A program made the position numbers and the translations under genes. From Nitrospinota bacterium (lineage in GTDB: Bacteria > Tectomicrobia > Entotheonellia > J063), in NCBI GenBank assembly GCA_003696125.1, contig RFHZ01000582.1:1-7680 (forward strand): DNA of 7,680 nt, given 5' to 3'. Below the pieces are notes generated by a model that had not been told where the DNA came from, did no database searches, and was given only the letters and a program-made list of their open reading frames with translations. Positions 2,833 through 6,005 of this stretch are shown in pieces (position 1 is the first letter of the stretch; the number at the start of each line of letters is the position of its first letter).

Positions 2833-2872
2833 TGAGTAATGAGTAACGAGTAATGAGTGATGAGGACTGAGT
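2824..2872. repeat. Heptanucleotide tandem repeat, 7 units
   Basis: Seven consecutive 7-bp units follow the pattern RAYGAGT: AATGAGT, GATGAGT, AATGAGT, AACGAGT, AATGAGT, GATGAGG, ACTGAGT. The first two units contain the last codons and the stop codon of the upstream gene. Because 7 is not a multiple of 3, the units present TGA, TAA and similar stops in different frames. The array resembles in form the heptamer STRR repeats described in cyanobacteria, although I make no claim of common origin. Confidence 0.85.
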
Positions 2873-2915
2873 AAATCCTTTGTGCCTGGTTTATTGTAGT
2901 CAAGTGTTCCGGGTT

Positions 2916-2955
2916 CGCCAGGTAGGGACGCAGCACGCTGCGCCTCTACCAGGCG
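2916..2955. repeat. 40-bp imperfect palindrome
   Basis: The arms GGTAGGGACGCAGC (2921-2934) and GCTGCGCCTCTACC (2937-2950) are inverted around a 2-base centre. They differ by one A-C mismatch and one G-T wobble. After an A-A mismatch the stem extends four more pairs (CGCC at 2916-2919 with GGCG at 2952-2955). No T-tract follows, so it is not a standard intrinsic terminator. It looks like a small dispersed palindromic repeat, though only one copy is in the window. It could still block 3' exonucleases at the end of the upstream transcript. Confidence 0.7.
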
Positions 2956-3026
2956 TCCGGTGCCTCTGGGCTTTTGTTCCTTTGTGCCTTATATCTCCCC
3001 CCTGGATCTTTGTGGTGCTTTTCTGC

Positions 3027-3062
3027 GTGCTCGGCGGTCTCGGCAGTGGAAACCGCTCCTAC
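3027..3062 (-). repeat. REP-like hairpin repeat, copy 1
   Basis: Read on the minus strand it begins GTAG, then GAGCGGTTTCCACTGC. The stem GCGGT/ACTGC encloses a TTCC loop (3043-3056). A GTAG or similar tetranucleotide before a short imperfect hairpin is the form of REP elements mobilised by RAYT transposases; no RAYT gene is in the window. The plus strand shares GTGCTCG, an identical 12-base spacing, and GTGGAAACCGCTCCT with the copy at 3588-3621. Confidence 0.7.
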
Positions 3063-3092
3063 ACCGGAGCCATCCTGTGGTCATGACGAAGC

Positions 3093-3120
3093 GTCTCACC
3101 TTCCCAGGAACTTGAGACAG
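3093..3120. mobile_element. Minimal MITE-like relic (two fused terminal repeats)
   Basis: This short palindrome has GTCTCA (3093-3098) matching TGAGAC (3113-3118) and TTCC (3101-3104) matching GGAA (3107-3110), with a two-base centre. On the minus strand, 3104-3120 reads CTGTCTCAAGTTCCTGG and matches the left end of the element at 3484-3706 at 16 of 17 bases. Its other end shares GTCTCACCTT with that element's right end. It therefore looks like both termini of the same family with no interior, in inverted orientation relative to the larger copy. The alternative is a protein-binding palindrome. Confidence 0.5.
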
Positions 3121-3136
3121 CCACCTAATAAAGAAC

Positions 3137-3166
3137 TGGACAAAGGCTACCGTTTCACGGTATAGT
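3137..3166 (+). promoter_or_regulatory. Sigma-70-type promoter for the 67-residue gene
   Basis: TGGACA (3137-3142) and TATAGT (3161-3166) are separated by 18 bases. Each differs from consensus at one position. Transcription would start near 3173, leaving a short leader of about 38 bases before the ATG at 3211. No other promoter-like pair fits as well in this gap. Confidence 0.6.
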
Positions 3167-3210
3167 AAATAGGCGGGAGAGAGTAACCTGACGTTCGAGG
3201 AGGAAGATCT

Positions 3211-3414
3211 ATGCCCAAAAAAGCCGAACGCGGTTACGCCACTCTCACCAACGATCAAAAGGTCGTGCTCATCGAAAAGCTCGTCTTCGCCTACGAAGAG
3301 CATTCCATCGATGCGGAAACGGCGTTGCGCTGGATTCAGGATGTGCTGGAGAACCGCGCTGCCACTGCCGAGGTGCGGGAATTCCTTGAACAACAACTCC
3401 TGCTTCCCCTGTAA
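3211..3414 (+). CDS. Small acidic protein of unknown function, 67 aa
   Basis: The ATG is preceded by AGGAGG (3198-3203) at a 7-base spacing, with a promoter-like pair at 3137-3166 and a TAA at 3412-3414. These make a real gene likely despite its size. The product has no signal peptide or membrane segment, so it is probably cytoplasmic. After a basic N-terminus (MPKK) it is mostly helix-forming, with a net negative charge (about 12 acidic to 8 basic residues) and few glycines. It has no cysteine or obvious catalytic motif. The Leu-rich C-terminus (EFLEQQLLLPL) could support oligomerisation. I do not recognise the family. The gene stands alone: repeat-bearing stretches flank it on both sides and related transposon-like ends bracket it. 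A small adaptor or DNA-linked regulator are guesses only. Confidence 0.75.
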   Translation: MPKKAERGYATLTNDQKVVLIEKLVFAYEEHSIDAETALRWIQDVLENRAATAEVREFLEQQLLLPL

Positions 3415-3483
3415 CTTCCCGGAAGGGAGGTAATGAAGGACGCCAGGTGACGCTTTTCAGCTCCCAGGGAAGAACGGGTGAGT

Positions 3484-3706
3484 CTGTCTCAACTTCCTGG
3501 TATGCTCTCTGCCTGGAGATTGCTGCACCGGCAACGGGATCTTTCCCTCGCCTGGAGGAGCGATTTTAGTCGCGACCCGGCGGGACGGTGCTCGCTTGGG
3601 GGCGCGGTGGAAACCGCTCCTGTCATGGCCTCCCGGGGCATGGTACGGAGCGCTGGCGACGACGCCCTCTCTCAGGGGATAGGGTCCTCCCAGTAAGGTG
3701 AGACAG
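3484..3706. mobile_element. MITE-like element with 17-bp terminal inverted repeats
   Basis: The left end CTGTCTCAACTTCCTGG (3484-3500) and the reverse complement of the right end CTGTCTCACCTTACTGG (3690-3706) agree at 15 of 17 bases. The 223-bp element encodes no transposase, so movement would need one supplied elsewhere. I cannot see a clear target-site duplication. Its interior contains an inverted pair of REP-like hairpins. A matching pair of ends occurs at 3093-3120, which supports a repeat family rather than a chance inverted repeat. Confidence 0.55.
3554..3625. repeat. Inverted pair of REP-like hairpins (BIME-like)
   Basis: On the plus strand, GGAG (3554-3557) precedes GAGCGATTTTAGTCGC, whose stem GCGAT/GTCGC encloses TTTA (3560-3573). 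On the minus strand, ACAG at 3625-3622 precedes GAGCGGTTTCCACCGC, a perfect GCGGT/ACCGC stem with a TTCC loop. The two face each other, and their outer AGGAGCG and CGCTCCT (3556-3562 and 3615-3621) can pair to make one large cruciform-capable structure. This is the arrangement of bacterial interspersed mosaic elements. The minus-strand unit matches copy 1 at 3027-3062. Confidence 0.7.
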
Positions 3707-3726
3707 ATACAGAACGGATTCTGATA

Positions 3727-3755
3727 TTGACAAATTTCCGTAAAAGGAGTATAAA
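3727..3755 (+). promoter_or_regulatory. Strong sigma-70 promoter of the leader and transporter operon
   Basis: A perfect TTGACA (3727-3732), a 17-base spacer and TATAAA (3750-3755) make this the best promoter match in the window. The predicted start is near 3762. It drives the leader described next and, on readthrough, the transporter-family gene at 3964. Confidence 0.8.
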
Positions 3756-3761
3756 TAGATA

Positions 3762-3937
3762 GCACTAGGGAGCAGAAATCGCTTACGGCAGCAAAACGTG
3801 GAAACAGAGAAGCGAAGGAAGTTCCTTCCATGTAAGCTACTGTTGCTTCTCCTAGCAATCCTCTGCAGGGTGTGATAAGCGCAAAAGCTTTGGGTCTGGC
3901 GGTCAAAGCCTCCCTAAGTGAGACGGGAGGCTTTTTT
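3762..3937 (+). ncRNA. Candidate cis-regulatory leader RNA (riboswitch or attenuator)
   Basis: A transcript from the promoter at 3727-3755 would run about 175 nt to the terminator. Its 5' part folds as a long interrupted hairpin: CTAGGG (3765-3770) with TCCTAG (3850-3855), AGCAG with TTGCT (3771-3775 with 3843-3847), GCTTAC (3781-3786) with GTAAGC (3832-3837), and an inner GTGGAA/TTCCAT or GAAGG/CCTTC hairpin. The 3' part offers exclusive choices. GCTT (3887-3890) can pair with AAGC (3877-3880). Alternatively GCTTTG (3887-3892) can pair perfectly with CAAAGC (3904-3909), which would occupy the terminator's 5' arm. Only 26 bases separate the terminator from the next gene, so there is little room for a second promoter and readthrough must be controlled. 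I could not match it to c-di-GMP-I, TPP, cobalamin, T-box or yybP-ykoY signatures. A stand-alone small RNA is the alternative. Confidence 0.6.
3905..3937 (+). terminator. Intrinsic terminator upstream of the transporter-family gene
   Basis: AAAGCCTCCC (3905-3914) and GGGAGGCTTT (3925-3934) form a perfect 10-bp stem around a 10-base loop, and the T-run covers 3932-3937. The stem is strong and GC-rich at its top. Its 5' arm overlaps CAAAGC (3904-3909), which can instead pair with 3887-3892. Confidence 0.88.
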
Positions 3938-3963
3938 GCTTGGGGTAGTGGATGGAGTAGAGA

Positions 3964-5586
3964 ATGCATTTCCTGGAGCTATTGATCGGCCTCGTCTTCT
4001 TCATGTATGGGAGCCGGCTGGCCTGTGAGGGCCTGCAGGCGCGGGCTGGCGACAAAATGCGCGGGCTGGTCACCAGCCTGACCCAGAATCGCTTCATGGC
4101 CCTGATCGCCGGCATTATCCTGACCGTCATCCTGCAGAGCAGCAGCGCAACCGCGATCCTGATGGTCGGGTTTGCCAATGCCGGGATCATCTCCCTGACC
4201 CAGGCCATGGGGGTCATGCTGGGAGGGGGCATCGGGACCACCATCACGGTCCAGGTCATCTCCTTCCAGATCTCCCAGTATATCCGCTGGGCAATCGTCT
4301 TCGGCTTTCTCCTCCTCTTCTTCAGCAAACGGCCGGCAACGCGCTCTCTGGGGCAGATCTTCCTGGGGTTTGGCCTCCTCTTCTTCGGCATGCAAACCAT
4401 GGCCGAGGCCGGACGTCCCTTGCAGCAGAGTATCCTCTTTCAAGATATCCTCCACTCCCTGGAAGCCAATCCTGTCCTGACCATAGTCTTTTCCGTTATC
4501 TTCACCAGCCTGGTCCAGAGCAGTGCGGTAACCCTGGGACTGATCCTCTCCCTCTCCTTTAATGGCCTGCTTACCCTCTCTACCGCCATCCCTATCATCC
4601 TGGGAGCAAATGTGGGAAACATCGCCGGTGCCTTTCTCGCCAGTTGGGGCACCAATGTTGAGGGGAAACGGATCGCCTGGGCACAGCTCATCTACAAGAT
4701 CACCGGTGTCCTCTTGTTCCTCCCCTTCCTCGATCCTTTTGCCCGGCTGGTGGAGCAGACCTCTGCTGACCTGCCCCACCAGATCGCCAATGCCCATACC
4801 CTTTATAACCTGGCGGTCTCTCTGGCCTTTCTCCCCTTCATCTCCCTGGGCGCCTGGGTGGTCCGGAAAATCGTCCCGGATGAGCCGGAGCTCAAGGGGG
4901 GAGGGATTCAGGTGCTCTATCTCAATGAGCGAGCCCTGGATACACCGGCTCTCGCTTTTGCCCAGGCCACGCGAGAGATCCTGCGCATGGCAGAGCATGT
5001 GCAACAGATGTTCTCCGATGCCCTGCTCGCTTTTCAAACCCATGATCCGGCTTTATTAGACGAGATGAGCAGTCGCGACGACATCATCGATTTCCTGGAA
5101 CACCGCATCAAACTCTATCTCACCAAGCTCTCCCGCGGTGCACTGACCGAGGAGCAGGCAGCCCGTGAGCTCGAGTTGATCTCCTTCACCACCGAACTGG
5201 AGAACGTGGGAGACATCATCGAGTTGAACGTGGTCGAACTGGCCCGCAAAAAGATGGAAAAACGGCTGGAATTTTCTAAAGAGGGCTTTGCCGAGATCTG
5301 CGATTTTCACAAGAAAATCGAAGAGAACTTTGAACTGGCCATCGCCGCCTTTGCCACCGGGGATCCGGAAATCGCCCGCAAGCTGTTGCGACACAAACGC
5401 AAGCTGGCGGAAATCGCCCGTCATCTCCGGGAATCACATATCCAGCGACTCCATAAAGGGCTACGGGAGAGTATCGAGACGAGTTCCATTCATCTCGATC
5501 TGATCAGTAATCTCCGCCGGATCAACTCGCACCTCTGCAGCATCGCCTATCCTATCCTGGAGCGTAACCGACTCGAAATCAGCTAA
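3964..5586 (+). CDS. Na+/phosphate symporter family protein with PhoU-like C-terminus
   Basis: This 540-residue inner-membrane protein belongs to the Na+/Pi cotransporter family (NptA/YjbB type), which moves inorganic phosphate using sodium. The family's two inverted half-repeats are visible: QSSSA (58-62) with GGGIGTT (87-93), and QSSAVT (185-190) with GANVGN (214-219). The NAHTLYN segment (276-282) is also typical. Hydrophobic segments fill residues 1-302. Residues 330-540 are a soluble, charged, helical PhoU-like domain, as in E. coli YjbB, which is of similar length. The ATG is chosen because GGAG (3954-3957) lies 6 bases upstream and the protein starts directly in a membrane segment. In the second half-repeat the usual GxNxGT is GANVGN, so the conserved Thr is missing. 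Substrate and direction (uptake or export) cannot be read from sequence. The leader and terminator upstream suggest attenuation control. The next gene follows after 35 bases. Confidence 0.92.
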   Translation: MHFLELLIGLVFFMYGSRLACEGLQARAGDKMRGLVTSLTQNRFMALIAGIILTVILQSSSATAILMVGFANAGIISLTQAMGVMLGGGIGTTITVQVISFQISQYIRWAIVFGFLLLFFSKRPATRSLGQIFLGFGLLFFGMQTMAEAGRPLQQSILFQDILHSLEANPVLTIVFSVIFTSLVQSSAVTLGLILSLSFNGLLTLSTAIPIILGANVGNIAGAFLASWGTNVEGKRIAWAQLIYKITGVLLFLPFLDPFARLVEQTSADLPHQIANAHTLYNLAVSLAFLPFISLGAWVVRKIVPDEPELKGGGIQVLYLNERALDTPALAFAQATREILRMAEHVQQMFSDALLAFQTHDPALLDEMSSRDDIIDFLEHRIKLYLTKLSRGALTEEQAARELELISFTTELENVGDIIELNVVELARKKMEKRLEFSKEGFAEICDFHKKIEENFELAIAAFATGDPEIARKLLRHKRKLAEIARHLRESHIQRLHKGLRESIETSSIHLDLISNLRRINSHLCSIAYPILERNRLEIS

Positions 5587-5621: not shown

Positions 5622-6005
5622 ATGAGGGCTCTGCTGATCACCACTTTTCTCTGCTTCCTGCTCCTGCCGGGTACGGCTCCCTGGGTCCAGGCCCAACCCT
5701 TTGCCGACCGATCGGCCGGAGGCAAGACCGGATTGGTCGTGCTCAGCAGCATGACGACTCCTCCCTATGGGGTGGTCAAGCTGGCTTTTGCCACGGTAGG
5801 AACCCTCCTGGGGGGTGCTATCAACCTCTTTTCCCTCGGTCACGCCGGTGACACGGCCAGTCGTATCGCCCTGGGTGCTGCCGATGGGGACTGGTACGTG
5901 CATCCAGATCTCTTCACCGGGGAGCGCTCCCTCCGCTTCATCGGACCAGGGGCAACCATACAGGGGGTAAAACTCCCGCTCATAATCCGGGAAAAACAGC
6001 CCTAG
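5622..6005 (+). CDS. Small exported protein of unknown function, 127 aa
   Basis: The N-terminus is a clear Sec signal peptide: Arg at position 2, a hydrophobic core (LLITTFLCFLLL), and a likely cleavage site after VQA at residue 24. The mature protein has a second hydrophobic, glycine-containing segment at about 48-73 (PPYGVVKLAFATVGTLLGGAINLF), which could anchor it in the membrane. A soluble tail follows, containing WYVHPDLFTGERSLRFIGP (91-109). That pattern of one hydrophobic helix followed by a tyrosine/proline stretch and 'GE..LRF.GP' resembles short uncharacterised envelope proteins I recall from several environmental phyla, but I cannot name the family. It is probably cotranscribed with the transporter gene 35 bases upstream, so a link to envelope or phosphate physiology is possible but only inferred. 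Its stop abuts the stop of the opposite-strand gene. Confidence 0.82.
   Translation: MRALLITTFLCFLLLPGTAPWVQAQPFADRSAGGKTGLVVLSSMTTPPYGVVKLAFATVGTLLGGAINLFSLGHAGDTASRIALGAADGDWYVHPDLFTGERSLRFIGPGATIQGVKLPLIIREKQP

Follow-up and report, generated by a model that had tools for sequence, protein, structure and literature searches.

We assign positions 3761-3937 of the window, by which we mean the entire 7,680-base contig (C935) of a genome assembled in 990 contigs (~95% complete and 8% contaminated), to a leader that would control the following nptA-like gene by transcription attenuation, with a ligand, a protein or a ribosome as the acting factor, and place the probability of this reading at about 0.52. 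The leader is probably of an ordinary on/off type and was found in one genome only. Sequence inspection and folding reveal a strong promoter, a strong terminator separated from the gene by 26 bases, and a transcript 5' end that can pair with the terminator. The features that define this arrangement are collected in Table 1; a first-pass annotation of this DNA had placed the promoter, leader, terminator and start codon at coordinates that proved right when checked against the sequence.

Table 1. Features of the leader region and the downstream gene (window coordinates).
Feature	Position	Strand	Basis or remark
Sigma-70 promoter, TTGACA-N17-TATAAA	3727-3755	+	11/12 consensus; chance expectation for the region ~0.002
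Untranslated leader RNA	3761-3937	+	Sequence; start inferred from the -10 box
Segment 1, candidate 5'-end antiterminator strand, CACUAGGGAG	3763-3772	+	Pairs over 10 bp with 3910-3920 (one bulge)
Candidate 25-residue leader peptide ORF beginning with GTG, its six Leu codons (3837-3854) lying across segment 2	3798-3875	+	No Shine-Dalgarno
Segment 2, P1 partner of 3765-3775, would sequester segment 1	3843-3855	+	Minimum-energy folds of partial transcripts
Candidate local antiterminator hairpin, GCUUUG/CAAAGC (3887-3892/3904-3909)	3887-3909	+	Perfect 6 bp; 34% chance of equal
Intrinsic terminator (segments 3 and 4), with a U tract after a 10-bp stem (3905-3914/3925-3934)	3905-3937	+	-16.7 kcal/mol
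nptA-like Na+/phosphate transporter gene with PhoU domain	3964-5586	+	PF02690, E 1.5e-54; PF01895, E 3.4e-22

The -35 box (3727-3732) and the -10 box (3750-3755), separated by a spacer of 17 nt, form the sole 11/12 sigma-70 site in the window when both strands are counted, far beyond the chance expectation of 0.0017 such sites per 700 nt of like composition, or 0.003 per 7.68-kb strand. An automated promoter scan passed over this site because it requires the -10 box to end in T. The transcript start is placed from the -10 box only, and a start after 3763 would lose antiterminator pairs; from 3761 the leader RNA extends over roughly 175 bases to the end of the terminator. The latter consists of AAAGCCUCCC, a 10-nt loop and GGGAGGCUUU, followed by further Us, with all 10 pairs of the Watson-Crick type, and was likewise passed over by an automated scan, whose loop limit is 8. 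No terminator of this strength is found elsewhere in the window, and 0 of 200 simulated windows reach even 8 pairs. The promoter and the 10-bp terminator of the first-pass annotation are thus both borne out.

The downstream gene product contains both PF02690 (Na_Pi_cotrans) and a PhoU domain and is nptA-like. Its ATG start codon at 3964 follows the terminator after a gap of 26 bases and is preceded a few bases upstream by GGAG. Further promoter-like sites were sought from 3755 to the gene and none was found; expression of the transporter most likely requires readthrough of the terminator, as had been proposed in the first-pass annotation. With the full-length transcript at equilibrium, the pair probability of the terminator is 0.998, and its dominance means that readthrough must be set by kinetics or by a factor. 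On the other side of the promoter lies a stretch of ~0.9 kb (2833-3726), between a cyclase/AAA/TPR gene and the promoter, in which we recognized no gene or RNA. This stretch gives no Rfam match, its tested minus-strand ORFs give no Pfam match above cut-off (the ORFs at 3457-3969 and 2989-3396 were searched, and no family exceeded its own cut-off), and it holds a 10/12 promoter-like site at 3137. Beyond the transporter gene, a 127-residue ORF on the plus strand (5622-6005) has a signal peptide-like start and a strong Shine-Dalgarno sequence (-12.1 kcal/mol) and matches no Pfam family.

The promoter and terminator would also suffice for a stand-alone small RNA gene at 3761-3937, the transporter then being served by a constitutive, unregulated leak. 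The complete transcription unit and the very strong terminator speak for such a gene, as does the near-complete pairing of the terminator at full length, given that switching exists in the model only. However, no such RNA is present in Rfam or was found in the other genomes searched, the complementarity between the 5' end and the terminator (see below) would have to be a coincidence of ~1%, and the 26-base gap leaves the transporter gene with no separate promoter; we consider this explanation somewhat unlikely. A specific identity of this kind, 6S RNA, was tried and rejected, as RF00013 finds no match in the window and the true 6S RNA of this genome resides on contig C31 (2875-3056, 99.5 bits). 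The ORF that follows the latter reads as what we take to be a 5-formyltetrahydrofolate cyclo-ligase, presumably in the classical ssrS-ygfA order. No 6S RNA match was obtained in the four further genomes of this class.

Further evidence for attenuation comes from the pairings available to the 5' arm of the terminator. The 6-bp antiterminator singled out in the first-pass annotation (3887-3892/3904-3909) is indeed perfect, and the competing AAGC (3877-3880), which can pair with GCUU, is present; however, 34% of simulated leaders offer the terminator arm an equally perfect 6-bp partner by chance, and this helix alone is therefore weak evidence. An alternative pairing that excludes the terminator does exist, as that annotation held, but the one that lies beyond chance is not the annotated helix; it is one that was missed, in which the very 5' end of the transcript, CACUAGGGAG (3763-3772), pairs with CUCCCUAAGUG (3910-3920), which lies in the terminator 5' arm and loop. 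In folds of the growing transcript, this helix directly adjoins the local one. Pairing of 3904-3924 with the leader amounts to -12.7 kcal/mol, compared with -6.1 ± 2.4 kcal/mol in dinucleotide shuffles (10 of 1000 equal or better) and -5.2 ± 2.3 kcal/mol for genomic segments (2 of 600 equal or better), where the p of ~0.01 from the shuffles belongs to a pairing picked after viewing the folds rather than to a planned test. On the other side of the balance, the stability of the leader fold as a whole is close to that of shuffles (z = -0.35).

Minimum-energy folds of partial transcripts order these pairings along the path of transcription. Helix P1 (3765-3775/3843-3855) is present in most folds for transcript ends from 3850 to 3894 and reappears at 3910; the antiterminator prevails for ends at 3914-3930, and the terminator takes over from 3932 on. 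In the complete transcript, the terminated form leads the antiterminated one by only 3.7 kcal/mol. As modeled, a sequestrator (segments 1:2), an antiterminator (1:3) and a terminator (3:4) are mutually exclusive, which is the layout of an attenuator. Early in transcription, the 5' end would be held in P1; with P1 closed, the terminator would form and the RNA would end at ~3937. If P1 were opened or prevented from forming, 3763-3772 would be free to pair with 3910-3920, beside the local helix 3887-3892/3904-3909, and the antiterminator so formed would block the terminator and allow the transporter gene to be transcribed.

One candidate for the factor that acts on P1 is a ribosome. Under ribosome-mediated attenuation, a ribosome slowed at the Leu codons of the short ORF at 3798-3875 would cover the 3' strand of P1 and so leave the 5' end available for the antiterminator; when the Leu codons are blocked in the folds, the long antiterminator persists until the 3' arm of the terminator has been made. 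A run of six Leu codons has a probability of ~0.0003 in a simulated leader of equal length, which is an optimistic figure, since any other residue repeated in this way would have drawn notice as well, and the run sits in the P1 strand, of whose pyrimidine-rich composition it may be a by-product. Against this mechanism, the GTG of the ORF lacks a Shine-Dalgarno sequence (-2.0 kcal/mol, a value that the median random position surpasses), and a metabolic reason for Leu to govern a phosphate transporter is not apparent. We regard a ribosomal mechanism as unlikely. The Leu codons of this ORF are of mixed spelling, and the encoded sequence is charged and then hydrophobic, like a small membrane or leader peptide. 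The leader also contains a start-stop AUG-UAA (3830-3835, plus strand), eight bases 3' of GAAGGAAG, as a possible minimal ORF.

A second candidate is a Na+ or phosphate riboswitch, with an aptamer at 3776-3842 that would act through P1. The layout allows this, with ligand-stabilized P1 giving an OFF switch, and the downstream gene fits; sodium or phosphate as the ligand was nonetheless a guess of the first-pass annotation drawn from that gene, and no riboswitch or leader family matches. Over the window, no Rfam family reaches its gathering cut-off, and only two chance-level matches appear at E values up to 5; the best of the sub-threshold matches, Phe_leader, scores 20.9 bits relative to a cut-off of 55, mostly via the terminator. 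The first-pass annotation recognized no known class here, and the Rfam search agrees: none of the Rfam leader families rises above its own cut-off for this leader, and the covariance model of the Na+ (DUF1646) riboswitch finds no match in it. In addition, the 5' domain is no more stable than its shuffles (z = -0.17), and a conserved aptamer was seen in no relative across 98 genomes, 59 homologue loci and a DNA search of 386 genomes. We hold a riboswitch for either ion to be very unlikely; of the first-pass proposal of a riboswitch or attenuator leader, the attenuator part is likely, whereas nothing directly supports a riboswitch for Na+ or phosphate.

Searches of its own genome, its class and the wider genome sets found no relative of the leader, which stands as a single unconserved example from an undersampled lineage. 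Comparison of the leader DNA with its own genome and with 98 and then 386 genomes gave scattered short matches in a number near the chance expectation. The second match in its own genome (C168, 4938-4967; 28/32 identical, E 0.002) was rejected as another leader, as it falls in the apparent signal peptide region of a coding gene. When run on 98 genomes and on 59 homologue loci, a structure model built from one sequence (3761-3850) matched only itself, an nhmmer search of the leader over the transporter homologue loci likewise recovered the self-match alone, and a plasmid collection yielded a single trivial match of 27 bases. An alignment query for the transporter retrieved 80 loci at 33-47% identity. 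The first-pass annotation had proposed a search for homologous leaders 5' of PF02690 genes; no comparable leader is present in the regions 5' of these 80 nptA-like loci, and the best 20 also lack Rfam matches.

The genomes compared include just five of this phylum, the remaining four of which lack the transporter; close relatives of the transporter protein were not found in genome and viral contigs, and the nearest proteins, from metagenome genomes named Deltaproteobacteria, Rokubacteria, Nitrospirae and others, are only ~43-47% identical. Presence or absence of the leader elsewhere is therefore uninformative. A survey of premature terminators describes the signal-sensing structures of attenuators as diverse and quick to evolve (PMC2965389), and a singleton leader is thus no refutation of attenuation. 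That the leader represents a new riboswitch or attenuator class of a poorly sampled phylum, controlling a Na+/phosphate transporter and drawing its antiterminator strand from the outermost 5' bases of the transcript, is a bolder reading that we judge distinctly unlikely. If the switch works, it would place an nptA-type phosphate transporter under cis-acting RNA control, of which a limited literature search turned up no example.

With attenuation leaders in general (PMC2965389), the leader described here shares a promoter, an untranslated leader, a terminator near the gene and a mutually exclusive antiterminator; what sets it apart is a candidate antiterminator strand at the very start of the transcript, an nptA-like gene downstream and the lack of any conserved sequence in the searches. 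The described Na+ riboswitch (DUF1646) also controls sodium-biology genes, through a terminator in the example described, and is an ON switch whose aptamer overlaps the terminator stem (PMC9337991), but its model does not match the present leader. 6S RNA (RF00013) resembles the leader in its similar length, in having its own promoter and terminator and in the gene close behind; the leader nevertheless lies outside that family, whose representative in this genome is the one on C31. Finally, leu/phe-type leader-peptide attenuators likewise feature a short ORF with a run of codons for one amino acid before the terminator, but here there is no ribosome site, and ribosome stalling would release segment 1, not segment 2.
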